The position numbers and the translations under genes were made by a program. Shown in pieces: positions 10,407 to 36,552 of a DNA stretch of 36,552 bases (position 1 is its first letter; every line of letters starts with the position of its first letter). The notes under the pieces are model-generated. The model saw only the letters and a program-made list of their open reading frames with translations, was not told the DNA's origin and searched no databases. This DNA comes from Acidimicrobiaceae bacterium (GTDB lineage Bacteria; Actinomycetota; Acidimicrobiia; Acidimicrobiales; Bog-793), in the NCBI GenBank assembly GCA_027365385.1, contig DAHXNN010000146.1:1-36552 (forward strand), in the 5' to 3' direction.

Positions 10407-11618
10407 TTGCACGTGTCAGCCGTACATCGCCGCTCGAGGCGTCGGGGGCGCCAGCTCGCGGCAACCGTCGCGACCTTGGTGATCGGCGGGACGGCGCTCG
10501 CCGTCGTCTACCGGACCAGCTCCGGCAACGCTTCTGCGACGCAGGCGCCAGCCGTCCGCCCGTCGCGCCTCCGCCTGGTCGCCCGCAGCCACCACCCGTC
10601 GCACCAGACCGCCACGAGGGCCGGCCTGCGGGTCCTCTCCACCACGCCGTCGAACGGAGCCGGAGGCGTCGGGGGGACCTCGCCGATATCGGTCACCTTC
10701 TCGGCGGCGATCGCCGCCGACTCCGCGCGACCGCGCATCGTCCCGAGCGTCCCCGGGTCGTGGAGGACTACCGGTCGGACGACGATGACCTTCACGCCTG
10801 CAGCTCCGTTCGTTCCGGAGAGCGATGTCACCTTGACGATCCCGGGCGGTCGTGCAGGTGTCCGCAGCCTCGACGGGTCCACGCTGCGCGCGAGCGTCGT
10901 CGTCGACTTCGGGATCGAGAACGGCTCCATTCTCCGCCTCCAGCAGCTCTTGTCCCTCCTCGACTACTCGCCGCTCGCGTGGTCACAGGCCGGACCAGCG
11001 ATCCCGGCGAACGACACGACGGCTCAGCTCGAGGCAATGTACGCGCCGCCTCGTGGACGCTTCGCCTGGCGCCAGTCCGGATGGCCCTCGCAGCTCACCG
11101 TCTTATGGAAGCAAGGCGCGTACACCACCTTCACACGCGGTCTCGTCATGTCCTTCCAGGCCGACCACGGTCTCATCGTGAACGGAGTTCCCGACGCGGG
11201 ACTGTGGAACGACATGCTCACCTCACTTGGCTCCGGCGTGGTGAACACGGGCGGGTACAACTTCGCGCTCGCCGACAAGGTCGCCCCGCAGACATTGACG
11301 ATCTGGCACGACGGCGCGGTCGTCCTGCACACCGCGGCGAACACCGGGATACCGCAGTCGCCGACACCGTCGGGCACCTTCCCGGTCTACGCCCGCTACC
11401 GCACCTACGTCATGCACGGCAAGAACCCCAACGGCGTCGCCTACGCCGACTTGGTGCAGTATGTGGCGTACTTCTACGACGGCGACGCAATCCACTTCTT
11501 CCCTAGGGCGGACTATGGGATCCCGCAAAGCCTCGGCTGCATCGAGCTTCCGCTCGCGCAGGCAGCCGTCGCGTGGCCCTACCTCGCGTACGGCACCCTC
11601 GTGACGGTGGTGAACTGA
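10407..11618 (+). CDS. L,D-transpeptidase with Big_5/Ig-like and peptidoglycan-binding-like regions
   Basis: LRVLSTTPSNGAGGVGGTSPISVTFSAAI...TMTFTPAAPFVPESDVTLTIP (Big_5-like); SFQADHGLIVNGVPDAGLW (PG-binding-like); HFFPRADYGIPQSLGCIELPLAQA catalytic Cys motif. Confidence 0.88.
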   Translation: MHVSAVHRRSRRRGRQLAATVATLVIGGTALAVVYRTSSGNASATQAPAVRPSRLRLVARSHHPSHQTATRAGLRVLSTTPSNGAGGVGGTSPISVTFSAAIAADSARPRIVPSVPGSWRTTGRTTMTFTPAAPFVPESDVTLTIPGGRAGVRSLDGSTLRASVVVDFGIENGSILRLQQLLSLLDYSPLAWSQAGPAIPANDTTAQLEAMYAPPRGRFAWRQSGWPSQLTVLWKQGAYTTFTRGLVMSFQADHGLIVNGVPDAGLWNDMLTSLGSGVVNTGGYNFALADKVAPQTLTIWHDGAVVLHTAANTGIPQSPTPSGTFPVYARYRTYVMHGKNPNGVAYADLVQYVAYFYDGDAIHFFPRADYGIPQSLGCIELPLAQAAVAWPYLAYGTLVTVVN

Positions 11619-11664
11619 CGGCGCCGCTCCATCTCGACGGCACCAGCCGGGAAGGCGGGCTGCG

Positions 11665-12438
11665 TCACCCTCCCACAGGTAGCTGAGCGAGCATCCCGCC
11701 GTCGACGACGACCGTGGTGCCGTTGACGAAGCGAGCCTGCGGCGAAGCGAGCCACGCGACGACTGCAGCGACGTCGTCTGGGTCTGCGAGCCAACCGAGG
11801 CGGCGAGGGTCCTTCACGAACCCGAGCTCCTGGGTGTCCGCACCGAGACCTCTCGCTCCGGTGTAGCTCGACGGCGTGTCGACCGCACCCGGCGCGACGG
11901 CGACGACACGCACGCCAGCGGCAGCGAGGTCGACTGCCATCTGCCGGGTGAGCGCGACGATCGCCCCTTTCGATGCTGCGTACGGGGCACTCTCGGGTAG
12001 CGCCGCGAACGCGTGGACCGACGCCATGTTGACGACGACGGCACCGTCCCCGGCCGCGACGAGATGCGACCTGCAGGCCCGGGTCATCAAGAACACCGAC
12101 TTCACGTTCACTGCGAACACCCGGTCCCACAGCTCCTCGCTCACCTGAGCGATCCCGCTCGAGAACGGGCTGATCCCGGCGATGTTGCACAGGACGCGGA
12201 CCTCCCCGAGCCCAGCGGCGACCTCGGCGACACCGATGCAGTCCGAGTCCTTGCTCACGTCCGCGGCACAGCCCGTCGCCGACCAGCCTGCGTCGCGGAG
12301 CGTCGCGGCCGTCCGCTCGGCGGCCTCGGCGACTCTGTCGGCACAGACGACATGCAGGCCGTCCGCGGCAAGACGCGCTGACGTCGCCTTGCCGATCCCC
12401 TGCCCCGCGCCCGTCACGACCGCCACACGCGTGCTCAC
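11665..12438 (-). CDS. SDR family oxidoreductase
   Basis: STRVAVVTGAGQGIGKATSARLAADG, CNIAG, YAASKGAIVALTRQMAVDLA; GTG start at 12438. Confidence 0.9.
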   Translation of the reverse strand: MSTRVAVVTGAGQGIGKATSARLAADGLHVVCADRVAEAAERTAATLRDAGWSATGCAADVSKDSDCIGVAEVAAGLGEVRVLCNIAGISPFSSGIAQVSEELWDRVFAVNVKSVFLMTRACRSHLVAAGDGAVVVNMASVHAFAALPESAPYAASKGAIVALTRQMAVDLAAAGVRVVAVAPGAVDTPSSYTGARGLGADTQELGFVKDPRRLGWLADPDDVAAVVAWLASPQARFVNGTTVVVDGGMLAQLPVGG

Positions 12439-12555
12439 CGCTCGCCACTCCCTCGTGCTGCAGACCCTCGCCCCGACCGGGACGTCGAGGCCATCGTAGG
12501 GCAGGTGCCGTCGCAATACTGCCGGGACGGGGCCGCAGAGATCGGACCCGGCGAC

Positions 12556-13794
12556 CTACGAGCCTGAGCTCCCGTCGCCCGGCTCGGCGCATGACGACGC
12601 TTCGATCGCCCACCGCAGCGCGGAGATCGCCGTCGCGCTGAGGGTCGCCTCGCTGAACCCCGCCCGCGTCGCGACCGCCGCCCGGCCGAGCTGGCAGTCG
12701 ATGACGTCCGCGACGATACGGCCGACCGGCGTGTCGCGGCGCGCGACGGCGTCTCGGAGCACGTCGTCGAGGGGAAGAGCGGCGAGCACGTCGTCAAGAG
12801 GCATGTCGAGGAGAAGGTCGAAGGCAGAGAGCATTCCCGCGGCGAACGCGACGTCGGCCTGATCCCGGCAGGAGCGCTGGGCGAGGAGCTCGCACATCCT
12901 CGCTCTCGTGAGCGTCGTGATCGCTTCGCCGTCCGTCGTCGAGCCGTGGCTCGTCTCGAGCAGGAACGTTATCCAACTCTGCAGGTGTCGCCACCCGAGC
13001 AGGACGAGAGCCTCTCGGATGCTACGCACGGGACGGCGGAACCCGTTGTCCGCCCCGACGCCCGCTATCTGCATCAGCTGATACGCCATGGCCGGCTCCG
13101 AGCGGACCACCTGCTCGAGCTCGGCAGCGCTGCACTGTCGGGACACGAGAAGAGCCGCTTGGCGCAAGCGTCCGAGGTTCGAGGCGTCGAGTGTCCTGCC
13201 CGGGACGACCTGCGGCGCCGACAGCAGATCGCCCTGGAAGTAGTCGAAGCCGATCTTGCGGCATGCCTCGAACTGGGCGGACGAGGCGACGTCGAGCGCG
13301 AGCGCGAGCATGCCCAGCTGCTTGATCTCCCCGAGCAGGGCGGCCAGCCGGGCGGGGTCCAGGCTCGCGTGGGCGACCTTGACGATGCTGGCGAGTCCGA
13401 GCAAGGGCTCGCAGCTCGCGAGGTCCTGCACGCCGTCCAACGCGATCGTGAAGCCGGCGTCGGCAAGGCGCCGGCTTCCCGCGACCACCTCCTCGTCGCC
13501 GGTGAGCCACGGTGCGACCTCGAGGACCGTGAGCTCGGGGGGCAGCACGACGGGCACCTGCCCGGCGAGCACGGGGCGGTCCGCGTCGCAGAACACCAAC
13601 CGGTCCCCGACGAGCCTAGAGACGCCGATGCTCACCGCGTCGAAGAGCACCGATGCCGTGGTCATATCGCCGGCCGGTCCGACCTCTCCCGACGAGCGCG
13701 GACCCGTGCGGCCGATCAGGAGCTCGTAGCCGACGACCTCGAGCTCGACGTCGAAGACCGGCTGCCTCTCGACGACGACGTCAATGACCGCCAC
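12556..13794 (-). CDS. EAL (degenerate)/HDOD domain protein, YuxH-like
   Basis: VVVERQPVFDVELEVVGYELLIG N-terminus (degenerate EAL); FDYFQGDLLSAP; HDOD-like LEQVVRSEPAMAYQLMQIAG...REALVLLGWRHLQSWI. GTG start at 13794 assumed (alternative ATG 13833). Confidence 0.85.
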   Translation of the reverse strand: MAVIDVVVERQPVFDVELEVVGYELLIGRTGPRSSGEVGPAGDMTTASVLFDAVSIGVSRLVGDRLVFCDADRPVLAGQVPVVLPPELTVLEVAPWLTGDEEVVAGSRRLADAGFTIALDGVQDLASCEPLLGLASIVKVAHASLDPARLAALLGEIKQLGMLALALDVASSAQFEACRKIGFDYFQGDLLSAPQVVPGRTLDASNLGRLRQAALLVSRQCSAAELEQVVRSEPAMAYQLMQIAGVGADNGFRRPVRSIREALVLLGWRHLQSWITFLLETSHGSTTDGEAITTLTRARMCELLAQRSCRDQADVAFAAGMLSAFDLLLDMPLDDVLAALPLDDVLRDAVARRDTPVGRIVADVIDCQLGRAAVATRAGFSEATLSATAISALRWAIEASSCAEPGDGSSGS

Positions 13795-15769
13795 GGCCCG
13801 TCCTCCCGATCGGCGCCGCCGTGTCGAGGTCATCTGCCGGGCGCGCCTCCTCGCCGGCGGCCGGCCAACCCGCCGCACCCACCTCCTCGACTCTGTGCCT
13901 CTTCTCGATTCCGCGCGCCTCCTCGATTCTGCGCATCGTCGCGACCACCTCTCCGGCGGCCACGGCCGGGGAGAACAGGTAGCCCTGCCCCACGTCGCAG
14001 CCCACCATGCGAAGGCAGGCGAGGTGCTCGGCAGTCTCGATCCCCTCGGCGACGACCTTCGCGCCGAGCCCGTGGCCGAGGGAGACGACCCCTTCGAGGA
14101 GCGTGAGCCGGTCCGGGTCGTCGTCGCAGCCGCGCACGAGCGAGTGGTCGATCTTGATGATCTTCGGGTAGATGAGCGAGAGATAGGACAGCGACGAATA
14201 GCCGATCCCGAAGTCGTCGATCGCCATCCTGATACCGAGATGGACGAGACGCTGCATCGTCTGGTTTGCCGCCTCGAGATCGCCGAGCGCCGCAGACTCC
14301 GTCACCTCGAGGACGAGACGGGACGGCGGGAGGCCGCTAAGGGTCAGGGCCTCCTCCACGACGCGCACGAGGTTGGGGTCGTAGAGCTGGCGCGTCGAGA
14401 GGTTCACCGAGACGTAGAGCGACCGGTCGCTGTCGAGTGCAGTCCAGCTCATCGCCCGACGCGTCGCCTCGCGCAAGGCGAAGGCGCCGAGATCGAAGAT
14501 CAGGTCGCTCTCCTCGGCAAGCGCGACGAACACCGTCGGAGGCACGCTCGCGCGCGTCGGGTGCGCCCAGCGCATCAGCGCTTCGAAGCCCTCCACCTTG
14601 CCGGTGGCGAGATCGACGAGCGGCTGGAAGTGCATCGAGAGCTCTTCGGCGGCGAGCGCGCCGCGAAGCTCCTGGGCGAGCTCGAAGCGCTGGACCGCCC
14701 GCTCGTGGACACCGGGGTCGAACACGACGTGACGTCCCTTGCCAAGCCGCTTCGCCTCGTACATCGCCGTGTCCGCCCTAGCGAACAACGACGTCGGATC
14801 CTCGTCCCCCGTCGCCCACGGCACGATGCCGAGGCTCGCTTGCTGGATCACCGACGTCCCACCGACCGTGAAGGGCTCGTCGAATGAGCGCATCAGGCGT
14901 GCCGCTACCTGGTTCACCTCGACGGCACCGTCGAGATCCTCGACGAGCAGGAGGAACTCGTCGCCTCCGAAGCGGCAGAGCGTGTCCGACGTCCGCGTCT
15001 GGACGCGGAGCCGATCGGCGAGCGCGACGAGAAGCTCGTCGCCGACGTGGTGCCCGAGGGTGTCGTTCACGCCCTTGAAGTCGTCGAGGTCGAGGAGGAA
15101 GACGGCTCCGCACCCCCCTCCGGCACGTCCCGCACGTGCGAGCGCGTGCCCGAGCCTGTCCTCGAACAGGACCCGGTTCGCGAGACCAGTCAGAGGGTCG
15201 TGGAATGCCTGGAAGGTCAGCTGCGCGACGAGGTCGTCCTCGCTGGCTACGTCGCGCGCGGCGAGCACGCAGCAGGCACCGTGTGCTCCCGGAAGCTCGA
15301 ACCGGCCGGTCGTGACCTCGGCGCCGACGATGCTCCCGTCCCCGCGGCGCCAGCGCACCGATCTTCGGCCGAGGTTCGCCACGCAAGAGTCGAGCACCGT
15401 TGCACCGCCCGCCTCCACGCCGTCGACGCGGAGGATCCCGGCGCCACCGGGGCCGACGAGCGCTGCCCGACCGTGTCCGACGAGCTCGCAAAATGCGGCG
15501 TTGACCTCGAGGACGTCTCCAGTCTCGCTTACGACGGCCATCGCAGTCGGGCTGTTCGCAAAAGCGAGCTCGTAGAGCTGGCGGCTCGGGTAGCGCTCGC
15601 CGTCGAGGTCCCTACCCAGATCCCAGAGCCGCGCTCGGTCGGTGTGCTGGGTGCCAGCGGCCCCGTCGACCGCCACCTTTCCGACCTCCCACGTCCGGTG
15701 CTGTTCGTTGTCGCAACCACATACGACGCCGAAGGGCTCGACCTTGAGCGAGACACGTTCCTGATGCAC
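13781..15769 (-). CDS. PAS-GGDEF-EAL protein (diguanylate cyclase/phosphodiesterase)
   Basis: PAS-like LYELAFANSPTAMAVVSETGDVLEVNAAFCELVG; RFGGDEFLLLVEDL; GFEALMRW; DDFGIGYSSLSYL. Confidence 0.95.
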   Translation of the reverse strand: MHQERVSLKVEPFGVVCGCDNEQHRTWEVGKVAVDGAAGTQHTDRARLWDLGRDLDGERYPSRQLYELAFANSPTAMAVVSETGDVLEVNAAFCELVGHGRAALVGPGGAGILRVDGVEAGGATVLDSCVANLGRRSVRWRRGDGSIVGAEVTTGRFELPGAHGACCVLAARDVASEDDLVAQLTFQAFHDPLTGLANRVLFEDRLGHALARAGRAGGGCGAVFLLDLDDFKGVNDTLGHHVGDELLVALADRLRVQTRTSDTLCRFGGDEFLLLVEDLDGAVEVNQVAARLMRSFDEPFTVGGTSVIQQASLGIVPWATGDEDPTSLFARADTAMYEAKRLGKGRHVVFDPGVHERAVQRFELAQELRGALAAEELSMHFQPLVDLATGKVEGFEALMRWAHPTRASVPPTVFVALAEESDLIFDLGAFALREATRRAMSWTALDSDRSLYVSVNLSTRQLYDPNLVRVVEEALTLSGLPPSRLVLEVTESAALGDLEAANQTMQRLVHLGIRMAIDDFGIGYSSLSYLSLIYPKIIKIDHSLVRGCDDDPDRLTLLEGVVSLGHGLGAKVVAEGIETAEHLACLRMVGCDVGQGYLFSPAVAAGEVVATMRRIEEARGIEKRHRVEEVGAAGWPAAGEEARPADDLDTAAPIGRTGRGGH

Positions 15770-15793
15770 GACAGCGCAAGACGCGCACCTGCC

Positions 15794-16822
15794 CTACGCC
15801 TCCGTCACCCGGTCGCCGTCAGCTCCACGACGCTCCGGCCAGGAGGCGCCCCACGCGACGTCTCGCGCCCCTCGGTACTCGCCACCTTGCCGCTTGCTCA
15901 CCATCTCGTCCCGAACGTCGCCGCCGGCGGTGCAGAGGCTGAGCGTCACCACGCCCTTGCGGATCCAGGGATGACGGACGACGCGCGCCGCGGGACGGTC
16001 GAGATCGAGGCCGCGGGCAGCCGCCACGAAGCTGAACTTCTCGTCCTCGTAGGCGAGGTCCGCCCCCTTGAGGCGTCTGTGGAGAGAAGACCGCTCGAGC
16101 CGAGCAGAGAAGTGGCACCAGTCGTCCCCTCCGGCGAGCGGGCACGGCGCGTCGTGCGGGCACGGCGCGACGACGGCCATGCCGAGCTCGACGAGCAGGG
16201 CGCGAGCGGCCACGATGCGCGCGAAGCCGGCCGGGGTGCCCGCGTCGACGAGCACGACGAGCGGCGCCGCACGAGCGGCGCACGCGACGAGGTCTGCCCG
16301 GCCGCGGGCGTCGAGCTCGCCGAGGAGGTAGGACGCCACGGCCATCTCCGCCGCAGGGATCGCTGCGCCCGACGATGCGAGACGCCACGTGCGCCACGTC
16401 GCACTCGCGAGCGCGTCCGATCCGGACTCCCCGGCAAGCGAGCGCCCGAGATCGATCGCCACCTCCTGCTGCTCGAGCAACGTCACCACACGCGAGCCGA
16501 AGACGTCCACCGCCGCCCAGGACGCCGCACCCGTCCCCGCCCCGAGGTCGACGACGCTCGACGGCCCCGGCGACGCGAGCGAAAGACGCACCTGGCGGAG
16601 CGCGGACCACGTCGCCGCGAACGTCGCCGGCATCCGGTAGGCGGCATAGGCGGCGGCGGCGTTGCGACCGGCGAGCACTGGTGACGAAGGGACGCCGCCT
16701 GATCGGTACTCCTCGGTCATCCTCGCGACCGACGGCAGCATCGACGCCGCGCTCCGACCAGCGAGCACGGACTCGATCGACCGCCTGAGCCTCCTCGACG
16801 CGTCGAGCCCCGTCTCCGTCAC
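15794..16822 (-). CDS. Rsm22-like small ribosomal subunit methyltransferase
   Basis: YAAYRMPATFAATWSALRQV, VVDLGAGTGAASWAA, PCPHDAPCPLAGGDDWCHFSARLERSSLHRRLKG; GTG start at 16822. Confidence 0.85.
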   Translation of the reverse strand: MTETGLDASRRLRRSIESVLAGRSAASMLPSVARMTEEYRSGGVPSSPVLAGRNAAAAYAAYRMPATFAATWSALRQVRLSLASPGPSSVVDLGAGTGAASWAAVDVFGSRVVTLLEQQEVAIDLGRSLAGESGSDALASATWRTWRLASSGAAIPAAEMAVASYLLGELDARGRADLVACAARAAPLVVLVDAGTPAGFARIVAARALLVELGMAVVAPCPHDAPCPLAGGDDWCHFSARLERSSLHRRLKGADLAYEDEKFSFVAAARGLDLDRPAARVVRHPWIRKGVVTLSLCTAGGDVRDEMVSKRQGGEYRGARDVAWGASWPERRGADGDRVTEA

Positions 16823-24929: not shown

Positions 24930-27900
24930 TCAGGAGAAATCCCTACTTCGGGTCGTCACAGCCAGGACAAGCTCCTCGATGCGCTCGGCCGTGATGTTGA
25001 CGACACCGCCTGCCGACTCGGCACGGCCGCGCACGACCATCGCGGTCGCTCCGGCCGCGACCTTGCGATGCCGCTTCCAGCAGCCGACGGAGACGACGAC
25101 GTTGACGAGCCCGGTCTCGTCCTCGAGGTTGATGAAGGTGACACCGCCGGCCGTCTCTGGGCGTTGGCGGTGCGTCACGACGCCGGCCACCGTCACCTTC
25201 GTGCCGTCCTCCACCTCCCTCAGCTCGGCTGCGGTCGTCACGCCCCGGAGGTCCAAGTCCGGGCGGACGAGCTCGGTGAGCGACGAGTCCACGCTGATCC
25301 CGGTCGCCCAGAGGTCCGCCACCAGCTCCTCGTTCCGCTCCATCTCCGGCAGCTTCGGCGGCTCTGCACCTGTGACCATCCCGGCGAGCTGGCCGGGCTT
25401 GGCCGCGGCCACAGCTCCTGCTGACCACAGGGCGCCCCGGCGGCCCTCCCGGCCGAGCCGAGCCAGCGCTCCGGCCGTCGCGAGTGCCTCGAGATGCCCT
25501 GCGTTGAGCTCCGCCCGGCGCGACAGGTCCTCCAGGTCGACATACGGCGCACCGGCGGCGATGCGCTCCGCCACGTCGTCACCGATCGAGCGCACCGAGG
25601 AGAGGCCGAGGCGGAGCGCCGCGGTCGTCGCGCCTTTGCTCACTGGCTCGAGGCTCGCGACCGCACCGCTCACGTTCACCTCGGCGCGGCGCACGGTCAC
25701 CCCGTGCCGGCGAGCGTCCGCGACGAGCGTGCGCGGTGCCCAGAACCCCATCGGTTGGGAGTTGAGGAGCCCCGCACAGAACGCTGCCGGGTAGTGGAGC
25801 TTCAGCCACGACGACGAGTAGACGAGGTAGGCGAAGGACACGCTGTGGGACTCCGGGAAGCCGAAGTTCGCGAACGCCGCCATCCGGCTCCACAGCTCGT
25901 CGGCCACGTCGCCGACGATGCCGCGAGTGGCCATCCCGGCGTAGAAGCGACCGCGGAGCGCCTCCATGCGCAAGGCCGAGCGCTTCGAGCTCATGGCCTG
26001 GCGGAGCTGGTCGGCCTCGGCCGGTGAGAAGCCGGCGACGTCGATCGCCATCTGCATGAGCTGCTCCTGGAACAGCGGCACCCCGAGAGTCTTCTTCAGC
26101 GACGGCTCGAGGAGCGGGTGGAGGTAGGTCACCTTCTCCTTGCCGGCCCGCCGCCGCAGGAAGGGGTGGACCGAGCCACCCTGGATCGGACCGGGCCGGA
26201 TGAGGGCGACCTCGATGACGAGGTCGTAGAAGGTCCGGGGTCGAAGCCGCGGCAGCGTCCCCATCTGCGCCCGGGACTCCACCTGGAACACCCCAACCGT
26301 GTCGGCCGCGCAGAGCAGGTCGTAGACAGCGGGCTCCTGCGGCAGCTCGGCGAGGTCGACCTCGACCCCGTGGAACTCGGTGACGAGATCGACGGTGCGG
26401 TGCAGGGCCTCGAGCATCCCAAGTCCGAGCAGGTCGAACTTCACGAGGCCTGCCGCCGCGCAGTCGTCCTTGTCCCACTGGAGCACCGTGCGGCCGGGCA
26501 TCGTCGCCCACTCGACCGGGCAGACCTCGGCGATCGGGCGGTCGCACATCACCATGCCGCCCGAGTGGATGCCGAGGTGGCGCGGGAAGCCCTCGAGCCG
26601 GGTCGCGAGCTCGACCACATGGTCGGGGATGTCGTTCGTTCGTTGGCCGAGGTGGTCGGTCTCCCCCGCCGCCGCGGCGACCCGGCCGCGGCGTTCGAGC
26701 TGCTTCGACCATCGGTCGACGGTACCCATCGGGTAGCCGAGCACGCGGGCGGCGTCGCGGATCGCCGAGCGGGGCCGGTAGGTGATGACATTCGCGACCT
26801 GCGCCGCGCGGTCGCGGCCGTGGCGCTCGTAGACGTACTGGATCACCTCCTCCCTGCGCCCGCTCTCGATGTCGAGGTCGATGTCGGGCGGCCCGTCGCG
26901 CTCGGTCGACAGGAAGCGCTCGAAGAGCAGGCCGAGCGAGACCGCGTCCGCGAGCGTGATCCGGAGCGCGTAGCAGACCGCCGAGTTCGCGGCCGAGCCG
27001 CGCCCTTGGCAGTAGATACCGCTCCGCCGGCAGAACTCGACCAAGTCCCAGACGACGAGGAAGTAGCCGGGGAAGCCGAGGTGCTCGATCACTCCGAGCT
27101 CGTGGTCGATCTGCGCCCACGCGCCGGGGGCCCGCTCCGCGCCCCGCGGGCCATAGCAAGCGGTGGCGCCCTCCTCGGTGAGGTGGCGGAGGTAGGCCAT
27201 GTCGTCCATGCCGTCAGGGAGCGGGAACGGCGGCAACCCCGGGGCGACGAGCTTCAAGTCGAACGTGAGCTCCGCCGCGAGCTCGGCGGTGCGCTCGACC
27301 GCTCCGGGGTAGCGGCGGAAGCGCCGGGCCTGCTCCGCGGGCGAGCGCAGGTGCGCGGACGGCCCCGGCGGCAGCCAGCCGTCGAGGTCGTCGAGCGAGT
27401 GCCGGGAGCGGATCGCCGCTAGCGCGCACGCAAGCGGATGGCCGGTGGGACTCGCGTAGTGGGCGTTCGCTGTCGCCACGAGCGGTACACCCCGGTCGGT
27501 CGCAAGGACGGCGAGAGCGTCGTTGCGCGCCGAGTCGAGCGGCTCGTCGTGGTCCCACAGCTCGACGGCGACGTTGTCGCGTCCGAAGGTGGCGGTGAGC
27601 TCGTCGAGTGCCCGGCACGCGGCACGCGGGCCGTCGGTCACGAGCGCCGCGGGCACGGCCCCCTTCCGGCACGCGGTGAGGGCGAGCAGATGGCCTCCGG
27701 CCGCCGCGGCGATAGCTTCGAGCGAAAAACTCGGCCGGCCCTTCTCGCCGCCGGCGAGCTGGGCCGCGGCGATCGCGGTCCCGAGACGCGCGTAGCCTTC
27801 GGGGTCCCGGGCGAGGAGGACGAGGTGCTGGCCCGGCGGGTCCGGCTCGCCGACCGGGCGCTTCGCGATCCCGAGGGTCACCTCTGCGCCGAAGATCGTC

Positions 27901-28082
27901 GGCACGCCGAGCTGGCGGGCGGCCTCGGCGAAGCGGACGACGCCGTAGTAGCCGTCGTGGTCGGTCAGCGCGCACGCGGCGAGCCCGAGGCGAGCCGCCT
28001 CGACGACGAGCTCCTCAGGCGACGACGCGCCGTCGAGGAAGCTGAAGTTCGAATGGCAGTGCAACTCGGCGTACTCAACCAT
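24930..28082 (-). CDS. dnaE2: Error-prone DNA polymerase III alpha-type subunit DnaE2
   Basis: N-terminal PHP MVEYAELHCHSNFSFLDGASSPEELV; GPPDIDLDIESGRREEVIQYVYERHGR; C-terminal OB-fold EVEDGTKVTVAGVVTHRQRPETAGGVTFINLEDETG; paired with imuB. Confidence 0.95.
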   Translation of the reverse strand: MVEYAELHCHSNFSFLDGASSPEELVVEAARLGLAACALTDHDGYYGVVRFAEAARQLGVPTIFGAEVTLGIAKRPVGEPDPPGQHLVLLARDPEGYARLGTAIAAAQLAGGEKGRPSFSLEAIAAAAGGHLLALTACRKGAVPAALVTDGPRAACRALDELTATFGRDNVAVELWDHDEPLDSARNDALAVLATDRGVPLVATANAHYASPTGHPLACALAAIRSRHSLDDLDGWLPPGPSAHLRSPAEQARRFRRYPGAVERTAELAAELTFDLKLVAPGLPPFPLPDGMDDMAYLRHLTEEGATACYGPRGAERAPGAWAQIDHELGVIEHLGFPGYFLVVWDLVEFCRRSGIYCQGRGSAANSAVCYALRITLADAVSLGLLFERFLSTERDGPPDIDLDIESGRREEVIQYVYERHGRDRAAQVANVITYRPRSAIRDAARVLGYPMGTVDRWSKQLERRGRVAAAAGETDHLGQRTNDIPDHVVELATRLEGFPRHLGIHSGGMVMCDRPIAEVCPVEWATMPGRTVLQWDKDDCAAAGLVKFDLLGLGMLEALHRTVDLVTEFHGVEVDLAELPQEPAVYDLLCAADTVGVFQVESRAQMGTLPRLRPRTFYDLVIEVALIRPGPIQGGSVHPFLRRRAGKEKVTYLHPLLEPSLKKTLGVPLFQEQLMQMAIDVAGFSPAEADQLRQAMSSKRSALRMEALRGRFYAGMATRGIVGDVADELWSRMAAFANFGFPESHSVSFAYLVYSSSWLKLHYPAAFCAGLLNSQPMGFWAPRTLVADARRHGVTVRRAEVNVSGAVASLEPVSKGATTAALRLGLSSVRSIGDDVAERIAAGAPYVDLEDLSRRAELNAGHLEALATAGALARLGREGRRGALWSAGAVAAAKPGQLAGMVTGAEPPKLPEMERNEELVADLWATGISVDSSLTELVRPDLDLRGVTTAAELREVEDGTKVTVAGVVTHRQRPETAGGVTFINLEDETGLVNVVVSVGCWKRHRKVAAGATAMVVRGRAESAGGVVNITAERIEELVLAVTTRSRDFS

Positions 28083-28108
28083 GCGGCACTCCCGCCGCGC
28101 AGGCGACG

Positions 28109-29653
28109 TCAGTCATAGGTCGCCTCGATCCACCACCGACCGGACTCGGTGTAGACGAGGTGCGCCTCCTCATCGGCCGTCAGCAGCTGGAAGCGGGCGC
28201 GCCGGCGCCGCGCCCTCGGATCCCAGGTCCGCTCGTCGACGAGCCACGGACCGGCCCAGCCCGCGAGACCGACCCACGGACCACCGCCGATCGCGACGAG
28301 CGCCGGGTCACCGGAGATACGGCCGCGCGACAGCACCCGGACCGGCTGGCCGTCGGCATCGACGAGCTCCGCGGGGACCGGCTCCCGATACACGATCGCC
28401 GGCGCGGGCGCGGGGTCCCGTCCCGGGAAGGGCCCGGCGGGAAGCTCCGGTACCGGCTCGCCCCACGGGACGAGGACGACCCGCTCGGCCGGTCCCCGGC
28501 CGCCCCGGACGACGGCCGTGAAGACCGCATCCGGACCGAGCATCCCCCGTAGCCGGTCGAGCCCACGCATCGCACGCTCGTCCGCGTCGGAGCGACCACC
28601 GAAGAGCTGGAGCTGGCGACCGTGCGCCGGCACCACCTCGTCCGCCACGAGCCGCAGCCACGAGATCCCCGCCGTCGGCGCCGGCTCGGGCGCGCTTCCC
28701 GACAGCCAGCCCTCGAGCTGCCAGCGCAGGCGCTCGACGATCGTCGGGGTGGAGAAGCGGTCGTCGGCCCGCCACCGGCGGCTCAGCGCCTCGCCGTGCT
28801 CCGTCTCGGCCTCGATGACGAGCCGGGTACAGGCGAGGAAGCGCTCCCCGAGGACCACGGCAAGCTCGTCGGCCAGTGACCGTCCGGCAAAGGCCGCCAC
28901 GTCGACACGTTCGGCCGGCGGGTCGAACTCGGTGCGGACGGACAGCTCCTCCGCGGGCGCCTGGGCGTCGAGGCTCTCGCCGTCGAGGCCGCGTGACCGG
29001 CGGTGGGCCAGCTCACCGGCCGGTCCGAAGCGCCGGGCGACCGCGTGCGTGGGCAGCGCCGCGAACGCCCCGAGGGTCGGCAGGCCCAGCCGGACGAGCA
29101 GGCCGGCGAGGTCCGGGTCGCCGAGGACCTCGACACCGTGCGGGGCGAGGAAGGTCGCGGCCTCGCCCCGCGGGACAAGGAGGCCGTGGTGGGCCGCGAG
29201 CGTGGCGGTGAAACGGCCGTCCGCGATCCCGACCCGGAGCGCCCCGCGGTGCTGCTCGGGGAGCGCCGATCGAGCGACGGCCGCCACCTCCCGGCACAGC
29301 GCCTCCTCGCCGCCGAGGTAGCGCGCCGGTCCGCGCACGTCAAGCGCGAGCGACCCGGGCTCGGTGACCTCGACGAGCGGCGTGAGAGTTGCGACCGCGG
29401 CGGCCACCGGCTCGAAGGCGCGTGCCTCGGTGGCCCGGTCCCGGCCGACGACGGCAAGCCCGGGACAGCAGTGCTCGGCCTCACGCTTTCGCTGCCCGGT
29501 CGCGACGCCGAGCTCGGCCGCGCTCGCCGAGGCGGCCACCACCCGGTGGTCCTCGATGACTGCCACCGGCTCCTCGTCGCCATAGCCGAGCGCAGCGACC
29601 GGCCAGCGTGGACAGAAGGCGACAAGGACCCGCACCAACCTGGCCGTGCTCAT
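28109..29653 (-). CDS. imuB: ImuB-like Y-family DNA polymerase homologue
   Basis: MSTARLVRVLVAFCPRWPVAALG...CPGLAVVGRDRATEARAFEPVAAAVATLTPLVEVTEPGSLALDVRGPARYLGG; lacks the N-terminal DxDxFFA-type catalytic motif; directly upstream of dnaE2. Confidence 0.9.
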   Translation of the reverse strand: MSTARLVRVLVAFCPRWPVAALGYGDEEPVAVIEDHRVVAASASAAELGVATGQRKREAEHCCPGLAVVGRDRATEARAFEPVAAAVATLTPLVEVTEPGSLALDVRGPARYLGGEEALCREVAAVARSALPEQHRGALRVGIADGRFTATLAAHHGLLVPRGEAATFLAPHGVEVLGDPDLAGLLVRLGLPTLGAFAALPTHAVARRFGPAGELAHRRSRGLDGESLDAQAPAEELSVRTEFDPPAERVDVAAFAGRSLADELAVVLGERFLACTRLVIEAETEHGEALSRRWRADDRFSTPTIVERLRWQLEGWLSGSAPEPAPTAGISWLRLVADEVVPAHGRQLQLFGGRSDADERAMRGLDRLRGMLGPDAVFTAVVRGGRGPAERVVLVPWGEPVPELPAGPFPGRDPAPAPAIVYREPVPAELVDADGQPVRVLSRGRISGDPALVAIGGGPWVGLAGWAGPWLVDERTWDPRARRRRARFQLLTADEEAHLVYTESGRWWIEATYD

Positions 29654-29715
29654 CGAAGGCTCGTTCCGTGCTCCACCGACCGCTAGGCGATTCACCCCAC
29701 GGTCGTGGACTGTAC

Positions 29716-29729
29716 CGAACGTATGTTCG
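29716..29729. promoter_or_regulatory. LexA/SOS box CGAACGTATGTTCG
   Basis: Perfect inverted repeat CGAAC-GTAT-GTTCG, 63 bp upstream of imuB ATG (minus strand). Confidence 0.85.
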
Positions 29730-29908
29730 TCACCGCGCAGCGCCGGGAGCTGCACCGACCGCGCGACTGCCCAGCTCAATGGCTACGTCACGGCGCCAGA
29801 TCTTCTCGCCCCGGTGCTCCCGAGCCGCCGCTGTTGGAACCGACGGGTCCTAGCTGGAATGGGGTCCAAGCGTCCTTGGTGCCGGCATGCCGCCAGGCAG
29901 TACAGTGC

Positions 29909-29922
29909 CGAACGTATGTTCG
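29909..29922. promoter_or_regulatory. LexA/SOS box CGAACGTATGTTCG overlapping the helicase start codon
   Basis: Identical 14-mer; the ATG (29916) of the UvrD-like gene lies inside it. Confidence 0.85.
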
Positions 29923-31997
29923 CCACTGCGTGGGACGAGGGGCTCGACGACGCCCAGCTCGCGGCCGTCGGCCACACCGGCTCGCCGCTCGTCGTCATCG
30001 CCGGGGCCGGCACCGGGAAGACCCGCACCCTCACCGCGCGCGTCGCCCGCCTCCTCGAGCGGGGGGTGGCACCCGAGCGCATCCTGCTCCTCACCTTCAC
30101 GAGGCGCGCCGCCGACGACATGCTCGCCCGGGCCACCGCGCTCGCGGGCCGGGCGGACCTCGGCCGGCGGCTCCGCGGTGGGACCTTCCACGCCGTCGCC
30201 CACCAGCTCGTGAGCGCCTGGTCACAGCCGCTCGGCATCGGCGAGGGGTTCTCTGTGCTCGATCCGGCCGACGCGACCGACGTGATGGACCTGCTCCGCG
30301 ACGAGCACGGGCTCACCGGGACCGGGACGCGTCTTCCGAAGCCGGCGACGCTCGTCGACGTCTACTCGCGCTGCGTGAACACCGGGCGGGTCGTGGCCGA
30401 GGTCGTGACGAACGACTTCCCCTGGTGCGAGCCGCATGTCGACGCGATCTCGACGCTCTGCCGGGCGTATGTGGCCCGCAAGCGCGAGCGCTCCCAGCTC
30501 GACTTCGACGACCTCCTCCTCTACTGGCGGGCCGCGCTCGCCGACGAGGCGATCGGGGCCGAGCTCGCAGCGATGTTCGACCACGTGCTCGTCGACGAGT
30601 ACCAGGACGTGAACTCGCTCCAGGTCGACATCGTGCGAGGGCTCTGCCCGGACGGGCGCGGGCTCACCGTCGTCGGTGACGACGCCCAGGCCATCTACGG
30701 CTTCCGCGGCTCGGACGCCGCCCACCTCCATACCCTTGCCGCCACGCTCCCCGACGCGAGGGTCGTCCACCTCGAGCAGAACTTCCGCTCGCTCCAGCCG
30801 ATCCTCGACCTCGCGAACCACGTCCGGCCGGCGCCTTCGCTCGACGGCGAGGTCCCCGGGGCGACCGTGTCGTTGCGACCGCTGACGCTGCGGGCGAGCC
30901 GCGAGGGTGGCACCCGGCCGACGTTCCTGCGCTGCTACGACGCGGCGTCCGAGGCCCGCGCGGTCGTGGACCGGATCCTCGGGCATCACGAGGCGGGCAT
31001 GCGGCTTTCCGAGCAGGCGGTGCTCGTGCGCGCCGCCCACCACAGCGACCTGATCGAGCTCGAGCTCACCGCGCGCCGTGTCCCCTACCGCAAGTACGGC
31101 GGCCTCCGCTTCGTCGAGGCCGCGCATGTGAAGGACTTCGTCGCCACCGCGCGCCTGCTCGACAACCCCGCCGACGACATCGCCTGGTTCCGCCTGCTCC
31201 GCCTCCACGAAGGCATCGGTCCCGCTCGGGGCCGCCAGCTCCTCGAGACGCTGCCGCCCCGACGGCCGGTCGGACCGGAAGCCTGGGCCGAGACCGTCGC
31301 CGCGGCCCCGGCGCCTGCCCGCGTAGCGCTCAGTGCGACGATGGTCGCGCTCAACGGAGCACGCGACCTCGCCGGCGCCGGCGCGCGCAGCGCAGGGATC
31401 CTCGAGCTGCTCCGCCCGCTCGTCGCTGCTCGCTACACCGACGCCGAGGCCCGGCTCGGGGACCTCGACCGGCTCGCCGCAGCGGCTGCGGTGACCGACG
31501 ACTTCGCGGCCTTCCTCGCCGAGGTGACGCTCGATCCCCCGGTGTCGAGCTCGGACTTCGCCGGGCCGCCGCACGTCGACGAGGACTTCGTGGTGGTCTC
31601 TACGGTGCACTCGGCGAAGGGGCTCGAGTGGCGCGTCGTCCACCTGCCGCACCTCGTCGACGGGTCGTTCCCCTCGGACATGGCGCTCCGGTCAAGTACC
31701 GGGCTCGCGGAGGAGCAGCGCCTCTTCTACGTCGCGCTCACACGGGCGCGCGACGAGCTGCACCTGTACGCGCCGCTGCGTATGCCCCACCACCGGCGAG
31801 CCGGTGACGATCGCCACTCGCTCGCCCAGCACAGCCGCTGGCTCGACGATCAGCTGCTAGCGCTGCTCGCCGTGCAGGAGCAGCCCTCACCGCGCACGCG
31901 GCTCGCGCCGCCCGGGGTCGACCCGGAGGCGGGAGAGATCGCGCCCCGGCGCGCGGCGGTCGCGGCAGCGCTCGACCTCGACGCGCTCTGGCGGTAG
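29916..31997 (+). CDS. UvrD/PcrA/Rep-like ATP-dependent DNA helicase (SF1)
   Basis: DDAQLAAVGHTGSPLVVIAGAGTGKTRTLTARVARL, LLTFTRRAADDM, VDEYQDVNSLQVDIV, VGDDAQAIYGFRGSD, STVHSAKGLEWRVVHLPHLVDGSFP, EEQRLFYVALTRARDELHLY. Confidence 0.95.
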   Translation: MFATAWDEGLDDAQLAAVGHTGSPLVVIAGAGTGKTRTLTARVARLLERGVAPERILLLTFTRRAADDMLARATALAGRADLGRRLRGGTFHAVAHQLVSAWSQPLGIGEGFSVLDPADATDVMDLLRDEHGLTGTGTRLPKPATLVDVYSRCVNTGRVVAEVVTNDFPWCEPHVDAISTLCRAYVARKRERSQLDFDDLLLYWRAALADEAIGAELAAMFDHVLVDEYQDVNSLQVDIVRGLCPDGRGLTVVGDDAQAIYGFRGSDAAHLHTLAATLPDARVVHLEQNFRSLQPILDLANHVRPAPSLDGEVPGATVSLRPLTLRASREGGTRPTFLRCYDAASEARAVVDRILGHHEAGMRLSEQAVLVRAAHHSDLIELELTARRVPYRKYGGLRFVEAAHVKDFVATARLLDNPADDIAWFRLLRLHEGIGPARGRQLLETLPPRRPVGPEAWAETVAAAPAPARVALSATMVALNGARDLAGAGARSAGILELLRPLVAARYTDAEARLGDLDRLAAAAAVTDDFAAFLAEVTLDPPVSSSDFAGPPHVDEDFVVVSTVHSAKGLEWRVVHLPHLVDGSFPSDMALRSSTGLAEEQRLFYVALTRARDELHLYAPLRMPHHRRAGDDRHSLAQHSRWLDDQLLALLAVQEQPSPRTRLAPPGVDPEAGEIAPRRAAVAAALDLDALWR

Positions 31998-34277: not shown

Positions 34278-34612
34278 TCAACCGAGGATCGCGAACAAGT
34301 CTGCGATGACCATCTCGCCGGCAGCCTCGACCTCGTACTCGTCCGGCCAGTCAGACACAAGAGGGCGGAGGTCGTTGCGGAAGTCAGCGCGCGCCAGCTT
34401 CAGGCGGAGGTTTTGCTCGGCCAGTCGCGCCGAGTAGCCGTCCGGCCCTTGTGCAGGCAGGTGCCGCCCCGGAAGGCGAGCTCGCGGCCGAGGTAGGGGT
34501 CGTTTGCGATCTCGACGATGAGGCGCGCGAGGACGAGGTCCTGCTCGACCTGCTCGAGGGTGGGCCAGCGGACGTGGGACGACCACTCGACGATGTTCGC
34601 CTGCGGGATCAC
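34278..34612 (-). pseudogene. AbiEii-like nucleotidyltransferase toxin, internally deleted and frameshifted
   Basis: N-terminal VIPQANIVEWSSHVRWPTLEQVEQDLVLARLIVEIANDPYLGRELAFRGGTCLHK, then in another frame C-terminal YSARLAEQNLRLKLARADFRNDLRPLVSDWPDEYEVEAAGEMVIADLFAILG; the middle is missing. Confidence 0.85.
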
Positions 34613-35424
34613 AGGTCGGGCTCGACGTCGGTGTTCACGAGGACGTTCCAGCGCGCGTCGAGCTCGCCCGATCGAGGACCTCCGGCATCGAGTGGCGTCG
34701 GCTCGCTCCGTCTCCGGGCGTGTGGCACCAGCGGATCGGTCTCGATCTCCGTGCCGAGGTGTCGCGCGACGTGATCGAATAGCCATCCGGTGCGTTGTAC
34801 GACCGCAAGCGGGTAGGTCGTGGCCGCGCGCGTCAGCTTCCCGAAATCGAGATGGCCGCTGCTCACCAGGTCGGCCGCGACCGTGGCGACGTTCGAGAGA
34901 CCACCGCCGTGCTTGGGCGATGCGACAAGGTCGAGCACCGTCACCTCCCGGGTCGCGACCCGCATCGTGCCCGTCGGGGTGCTCGAGATGTCGACAGGAC
35001 GGTCTGCCGCTCGGACATCCTTGATGAACTCGAGTGCGACGCGGCCGAAGGAACGATCTCGTACGCGAGCGGTCGTGACGACCTGGAAGACCTGGGGACG
35101 TTGGTGCGCCGCGCCGTGGACCTCAGCAGCCGACAAGAAGCCGACGTAGTAGGGGTGGTCGAGCGCGGCCATCAGCCGGTCGACGAAGTGCGTCGCCGGC
35201 ACCGCGCCCCACGACCGGTACTCGGGCGGGATCGGGACGTAGGCGCCGCGCGTCGGGGAGAAGACCTGTCCCTTCTTGCGCAACCTCGCCATGAGAGGAG
35301 GGACCTGTCCCTGCGGGACATGGAGCAGCTCAGCGACCTCAGGCAGGTTGATCCAGTGCTGCCCGCGCGCGATGAGCTCGTCCGGCAAGTCGCTCGCCCG
35401 GATGTCCACCCTGGCGTCAGACAT
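34609..35424 (-). CDS. AbiEi-like type IV antitoxin
   Basis: HWINLPEVAELLHVPQGQVPPLMARLRKKGQVFSPTRGAYVPIPPEYRSWGAVPATHFVDRLMAALDHPYYVGFLSAAEVHGAAHQRPQVFQVVTTARVRD; its stop overlaps the toxin GTG start (GTGA). Confidence 0.9.
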   Translation of the reverse strand: MSDARVDIRASDLPDELIARGQHWINLPEVAELLHVPQGQVPPLMARLRKKGQVFSPTRGAYVPIPPEYRSWGAVPATHFVDRLMAALDHPYYVGFLSAAEVHGAAHQRPQVFQVVTTARVRDRSFGRVALEFIKDVRAADRPVDISSTPTGTMRVATREVTVLDLVASPKHGGGLSNVATVAADLVSSGHLDFGKLTRAATTYPLAVVQRTGWLFDHVARHLGTEIETDPLVPHARRRSEPTPLDAGGPRSGELDARWNVLVNTDVEPDL

Positions 35425-35597: not shown

Positions 35598-35830
35598 TCA
35601 CGCGGGCGCGGCAATGTCCGGAACGGCACTCGTTTGCTGTCGCGTTGTCGCCTTCGCCGCACCCCTCGCGATCTGCTTCGAGAGCGCGGACGCGATCGCG
35701 ACGTCCCGTTCTCGGGTCGCGTGCTGGTAGATGAGCGCGGCCCGTGGCTGTGGGCCTGTCCCATCCGGTTCATGAGCTCCTTCGTGCTCGCCCCCGTCGA
35801 CGTACTGGTAACCAGCGATCTTCAGAGGTT
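35598..35830 (-). pseudogene. Tyrosine recombinase C-terminal remnant with a frameshift
   Basis: Frame A: TGASTKELMNRMGQAHS; frame B: QPRAALIYQHATRERDVAIASALSKQIARGAAKAT; together they match the XerC/phage integrase C-terminal motif (GAST-ELM-RMGH...AALIYQHATRERD). Confidence 0.85.
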
Positions 35831-35860
35831 GTCGAATAGCGACAGAGATCCAGCTATTCG

Positions 35861-36154
35861 TCACACTCCGCGATCACCGCTGTGCAGGAGTTCGGCGGCG
35901 TAGCTGTCCCAGTCACCTCCGGCTGCCTTGACCCACCGGACGGCGGTGAGCGGAGTGAGGTTGAGGGCTCGGACAAGCACTGCGGCTGGCAGGGTGGCGG
36001 CCGGGTGGATCATGACGCCGTCGACGCGGTACCGCGCCCGCCATCGACCCGACGGCAATTTCCGGGTGCTTACCCACGGACTGCGAGACGTCTTTCCAGC
36101 CACGACGTCCAGGTCATCGCTGTGGCACGTATGTGGCACGGCGCCTCGTGGCAT
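35861..36154 (-). pseudogene. Chimeric integrase remnant (N-terminal arm-binding piece fused to a C-terminal piece)
   Basis: VSTRKLPSGRWRARYRVDG followed directly by AATLPAAVLVRALNLTPLTAVRWVKAAGGDWDSYAAELL, a different integrase-type C-terminal block; the catalytic core is absent. Confidence 0.65.
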
Positions 36155-36161
36155 GAAGAAA

Positions 36162-36181
36162 GGGGACCCTCTCGGGTCCCC
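36162..36181 (-). terminator. Rho-independent terminator downstream of the tRNA-Gly 3' end
   Basis: Perfect 8-bp stem GGGGACCC-tctc-GGGTCCCC; on the minus strand followed by TTTCTT. Confidence 0.75.
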
Positions 36182-36208
36182 TTCTAGGTCATCTAACTGG
36201 ACTTTCTC

Positions 36209-36258
36209 TGGAGCGGACGACGGGATTCGAACCCGCGACCCTCACCTTGGCAAGGTGA
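36209..36258 (-). other. tRNA-Gly(GCC) 3' half: att site / truncated tRNA
   Basis: Minus strand TCACCTTGCCAAGGTGAGGGTCGCGGGTTCGAATCCCGTCGTCCGCTCCA: anticodon stem-loop with GCC, T-arm, acceptor 3' strand and CCA. No matching 5' acceptor strand or D-arm upstream. Confidence 0.85.
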
Positions 36259-36325
36259 CACCTAGGCGCAGGTCAACGTGCTAATATCGCCCCGTCGTGC
36301 ACTTCATTTGCACCTAGGAGCGAAA

Positions 36326-36552
36326 GTGACCCGAGCGAGCACCACCACCACCTCGAAGCCGGCGGCGAAGCGCTCCCGCCGATCATTTGGCAATATCCGT
36401 CAACTTCCGTCCGGTCGGTGGCAGGCGTGGTACCGCCTCAATGGCGAGCAGCACACGGCCGACCACACGTTCCGCACGCAGACCGACGCCCGAGACTGGC
36501 TGACCACCGTGAGCGCCGACCTGTTGCGCGGCGTGACCCTGGTCGACGTCAG
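36326..36552 (+). CDS. Tyrosine-type integrase, N-terminal part, truncated at window end
   Basis: GTG start: VTRASTTTTSKPAAKRSRRSFGNIRQLPSGRWQAWYRLNGEQHTADHTFRTQTDARDWLTTVSADLLRGVTLVDV; arm-binding/SAM-like N-terminus, adjacent to the tRNA 3' half. Confidence 0.85.
   Translation, partial: MTRASTTTTSKPAAKRSRRSFGNIRQLPSGRWQAWYRLNGEQHTADHTFRTQTDARDWLTTVSADLLRGVTLVDV

Follow-up and report, generated by a model that had tools for sequence, protein, structure and literature searches.

Organization of the right end of the contig

The window (the whole 36,552-bp stretch analysed here) is the entire contig C108 of the draft genome G000 (2.39 Mb, 243 contigs). Close to its right end, a piece of a tRNA-Gly(GCC) gene lies between the start of an integrase gene, which runs off the contig, and the remains of another, decayed integrase and its neighbours (Table 1).

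Table 1. Features at the right end of the window and in the adjoining chromosome
Feature	Position	Strand	Evidence
Chromosome downstream of tRNA-Gly (imuB, uvrD-like helicase, SRAP); G001 homology begins here	28075..33645		Matches G001:C61:14384-20000 at 94.3% (5.6 kb)
Truncated AbiEii gene, covering just positions 2-56 of 260	34400..34786	-	PADLOC AbiEii, E = 5.6e-20
AbiEi antitoxin gene (type IV toxin-antitoxin)	34609..35424	-	PF09407, E = 5.5e-27; PADLOC AbiEi, E = 1.2e-70, full profile
Integrase pseudogene of older island	35601..36154	-	tblastn of G015 integrase, E = 1.5e-19 and 3.3e-18
tRNA-proximal arm and integrase leader of older island, with terminator-like hairpin at about 36160-36184	36014..36208	-	G015:C4 match
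Displaced 3' fragment of tRNA-Gly(GCC), nt 27-76; att core common to intact gene	36209..36258	-	50/50 identity to G000:C14:356-405
Island-side att arm of newer island	36259..36325		Words also present in C14 arm
Integrase 5' end (75 codons), tyrosine integrase of newer island, cut by contig end	36326..36552	+	tblastn to integrase N-termini; homologues with PF00589/PF14659/PF22022

The tRNA fragment (TCACCTTGCCAAGGTGAGGGTCGCGGGTTCGAATCCCGTCGTCCGCTCCA) begins with the first anticodon-stem nucleotide, ends with the CCA and lacks the 5' half of the gene, and ARAGORN found no complete tRNA in the window. A search of the 2.39-Mb G000 genome gave a match of 98% over 55 bp (E = 3e-21), and the word made up of the T-arm and acceptor occurs at only two sites in G000, namely the fragment and an intact tRNA-Gly, so the match is not a product of chance. 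The first-pass annotation had described the 3' half alone of a tRNA-Gly on the minus strand, beside an integrase start, and its coordinates are exact to the base over all 50 bp.

The intact gene and the placing of the two flanks

The intact tRNA-Gly(GCC) is located on another contig (G000:C14:356-431), carries the identical 50-bp 3' segment, and is the one further copy of the core in the genome; it is thus the full-length gene whose presence had been proposed as a check on the junction. Upstream of it are orn- and dut-like genes (names read from the sequences rather than from a family search), and downstream are 355 bp of non-native DNA, up to the contig edge. For synteny we used G001 and G002, which are genomes of the same genus. 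The C14 junction is present in G001 as well (C14 127-1687, 90% identity), including the DNA downstream of tRNA-Gly.

The orn and dut genes lie upstream of tRNA-Gly on C14, G001:C61 and G002:C83 alike. The single contig G001:C61 holds orn/dut and tRNA-Gly (1362-1437), with the SRAP/uvrD/imuB block 13 kb further downstream, and on G002:C83 tRNA-Gly is followed by a GGDEF-containing block that matches 10625-16804 of the window. The genes in the left part of the window are 94-96% identical to those of G001 and 77-81% to those of G002 (for the GGDEF-containing block, 76-78% DNA identity), and the orientations of the flanks agree among C14, the window, G001:C61 and G002:C83. On this placement C14 forms the upstream flank and the left-hand genes of the window form the downstream flank, and the island fills the gap that separates C108 (right end) from C14 (left end). 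The prediction had been of this kind: an island on the right of the fragment, with the intact tRNA at its far end. No overlaps between contig ends, and no contig bridging both ends of the island, were found in G000. In G002, a strong terminator hairpin directly follows the CCA of tRNA-Gly, and this gene looks like an empty site.

The downstream chromosome also has a mutagenesis cassette near the insertion hotspot (24930-31997), which encodes a DNA polymerase III alpha subunit (DnaE2-like), an ImuB-like Y-family polymerase and a UvrD-like helicase.

A decayed island to the left of the fragment

The reading as an integration at a tRNA 3' end, with its island to the right, stands, with one addition: the DNA immediately left of the fragment is the remnant of an older island and not pristine chromosome. 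The arm and core together (36019-36258) are 92.5% identical over 240 bp to G015:C4, from another genus, where the matching DNA is beside an intact tRNA-Gly that is followed by an intact integrase. Because the left-hand DNA matches the G015 element and includes the integrase pseudogene, the fragment can be seen to divide a newer island on the right from a decayed older one on the left. The hairpin in the arm (fold z = -2.87) was considered as the native terminator of the tRNA, and hence as proof of native chromosome; this was rejected since the same hairpin occurs in the leader of the G015 element.

The pseudogene consists of two pieces, which correspond to residues 1-47 (36154-36014) and 338-405 (35806-35601) of the G015 integrase, the intact homologue, which carries PF00589. 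About 290 middle codons are missing, and an unrelated segment is found in their place (35807-36013, minus strand; about 200 bp). This segment encodes LPAAVLVRALNLTPLTAVRWVKAAGGDWDSYAAE and has no Pfam match; it may derive from the tail of a different recombinase that became fused to the pseudogene.

Farther left is an AbiE pair (34400-35424, minus strand), in which AbiEi is intact and AbiEii is cut to about 55 matched residues, leaving an antitoxin without its toxin. AbiEi is probably a leftover of the older island's cargo. The stretch between 33645, where chromosome homology resumes, and the fragment has a GC content of 0.64-0.66, versus 0.70 overall. A second core or tRNA fragment that might belong to the older island was sought in positions 1-36200 of the window, and nothing scored above shuffled sequences.

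The integrase of the newer island

The newer integrase starts with a GTG at 36326, 67 bp inside from the displaced fragment, with AGGAG (36316-36320) 5 nt upstream. Its frame is still open at the right and ends at 36550 solely because the contig stops at 36552. The 75 residues match the N-termini of frames of 369-443 aa in relatives (tblastn, E down to 3.7e-17), and each of the three full-length homologues that we checked (L047, L053, L048) carries PF00589, PF14659 and PF22022; L047 aligns to the window integrase at 56% over 54 residues. A Pfam search with the 75 residues alone gave no match, as expected for the N-terminal, arm-binding part of such a protein. To judge from these homologues, the catalytic domain would be encoded beyond the contig end. 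Headless integrases at contig edges were checked in the G000 bin, and the remainder of the gene was not among them: C235 has a possible length, but is XerD-like and sits beside trpS- and scpA-like genes, and C205, C32 and C211 do not fit.

Between the fragment and the GTG, the arm contains CACCTAG twice (36259 and 36311) and CGTCGTGCAC once (36293), words that also occur in the arm on C14. Positions 36259..36325 and C14:1-355 have 12 7-mers in common, against a mean of 4.8 for random stretches of the window (P about 0.02), and their longest common word is 10 bp (P about 0.06). The likeness between the two island-end arms is suggestive only.

Within the fetched relatives, the window and L047 (genome G011) have the integrase next to a tRNA 3' fragment on the opposite strand, which in L047 is a tRNA-Glu fragment; the commoner layout is that of an integrase just downstream of an intact tRNA and in the same direction.

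Interpretation of the junction

We regard the junction, with high confidence, as one end of an island that was inserted into tRNA-Gly(GCC) by a tyrosine integrase and came to lie beside the remnant of an older, related island (accretion). The 50-bp tail of the tRNA gene is displaced distally, an identical tail completes the tRNA on C14, the integrase begins 67 bp inside, and the flanks belong to one locus.

From the sequence we infer the following steps. The integrase would pair attP with the anticodon stem-loop of the tRNA (TCACC-TTGCCAA-GGTGA, a 5-bp dyad with a 7-nt spacer), and strand exchange would take place in the loop. The island's copy would then make the tRNA whole again, its former 3' half being moved to the far end, so that splitting and restoration of the gene would be one step, and excision would rejoin the tRNA parts. 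The older island, related but differently oriented, would have been an earlier user of the same tRNA-Gly, its integrase-side arm still abutting the fragment, and the newer island would have inserted between the tRNA and this remnant. Anticodon-centred sites are a standard class for tyrosine integrases (PMC4383910; PMC8371274, reviewing Williams 2002), since a stem with its 7-nt loop looks like a core site whose overlap is 7 bp. Two integrase subfamilies, of opposite polarity with respect to the same tRNA-Gly core, would share one att boundary. It is conceivable, if rather improbable, that either might act on the hybrid site, so that the old remnant would move along with the new island.

Alternative explanations

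A sub-case of the accretion reading is that C14 and C108 are separated by two or more islands, so that the C14 end comes from a different island than the window integrase, in a tandem array with a further, unassembled tRNA fragment. Tandem arrays at tRNA-Gly do occur in the family, as in G011, where two tandem displaced fragments are found on C111 and a cut tRNA at the edge of C73; the arms at the two ends resemble each other only weakly; and an arm like that of C14 persists in G001, where a second fragment was not detected. On the other side, the assembled G000 has just two copies of the core, and some arm words are common to both ends. We consider this arrangement unlikely, though a serious contender.

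An assembly artefact is a far poorer explanation, and a very unlikely one. Both junctions are near contig ends of a fragmented draft and the core is a shared repeat, so that the assembler might have swapped, at the 50-bp repeat, a tRNA-Gly joined to the old arm and a circular element bearing attP. Two reciprocal misjoins would be needed, however, and the word size used in assembly is usually above 50; moreover, the C14 junction recurs in G001 and the layout of fragment and integrase in G011. A third reading, in which the fragment has no tie to an element and represents an unrelated tRNA pseudogene or a coincidental match, has nothing in its favour beyond the missing island interior, and is refuted by the 50/50 identity, the exact 3' terminal extent, the integrase within 67 bp and the synteny of both flanks.

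Other uses of tRNA sites

The 353-38510 interval of G029:C19 (L137, L138) has at one end an intact tRNA-Gly with an integrase and an excisionase-like HTH_17 gene, and, at a distance of 38 kb, a 43-nt tRNA fragment. The interval also holds purK-, icd-, ilvD-, sua5- and dabA-like genes; the locus has either been rearranged or is an island with genes of a housekeeping type. With purK-, icd-, ilvD- and sua5-like genes inside, it was set aside as a clean 38-kb precedent and gives partial support at most.

Among viral contigs with the 40-bp core, nine of ten matches are intact tRNAs. In L068 (2410-2485; IMGVR_UViG_3300036798_000321), the core follows the 5' half of a pseudo-tRNA, unrelated in sequence, with which it still folds as a tRNA (ARAGORN), and a distant integrase is beside it; this may be an attP in the guise of an entire tRNA. 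It is of no help for the window junction. A scan of the genome collection for cores not preceded by A gave two matches (L104, L105), with no related integrase in the fetched DNA.

Elsewhere in G000, integrases are found within about 1 kb of tRNAs on C133 (L035), C119 (L036), C181 (L040) and C127 (L004, L017), the tRNAs being tRNA-Ala(GGC), tRNA-Val(GAC), tRNA-Val(CAC) and tRNA-Pro(GGG). Thus tRNA-targeted insertions are frequent in this genome.

Comparison with known systems

The locus resembles the tRNA-gene islands of Islander (PMC4383910), 2083 of 3919 of which use anticodon-centred sites, in having a regenerated tRNA and a displaced 3' fragment at its ends, a tyrosine integrase at one end, and an anticodon-centred site. 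By the criteria of Islander, an intact tRNA gene and a fragment of the same gene are both present (50/50 bp); the fragment reaches the end of the gene (nt 27-76, including the CCA) and is not internal; and a tyrosine integrase gene, identified from its N-terminal 75 residues, is inside the interval. The fragment is downstream of the gene, in the same orientation and on the same replicon, as placed by synteny (G001:C61, G002:C83) with the ends on separate contigs. Islander intervals span 2-200 kb; here the ends are on two contigs, with the interior of the island outside the assembly. For accretion, in which each island has its own integrase and fragment, there are two integrases (one a pseudogene) and no second fragment in positions 1-36200 of the window.

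Actinobacterial integrative elements at tRNA 3' ends include the tandem pairs Sav3708/Sav3728 and Fean5518/Fean5534 (PMC3218068). The features in common are a high-GC host, a tyrosine integrase, a tRNA 3' end, and the use of one tRNA by two elements whose integrases differ; here, in contrast, the older element is decayed, and no replication or transfer genes are visible, the island interior being outside the assembly. Actinobacterial integrative conjugative elements are recognised by a replication gene and an FtsK-type translocation gene. The element of G015:C4 (L116) and G029:C19 (L117) uses the same tRNA-Gly(GCC) and core, and is the element that the older remnant matches in arm and integrase. 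Its integrase is beside the intact tRNA and in the same direction, whereas the newer island has its integrase beside the displaced fragment and pointing away from there.

Significance

The insertion site is of an ordinary and well-understood type, and the current view of tRNA-targeting integrases is unchanged. The analysis places one boundary of a genomic island with single-base precision in an uncultured lineage of high GC that is probably actinobacterial, and links two draft contigs of G000 (C108 and C14) across one locus. For the family, it identifies tRNA-Gly(GCC) as a repeatedly used insertion site, occupied by means of at least two types of integrase.
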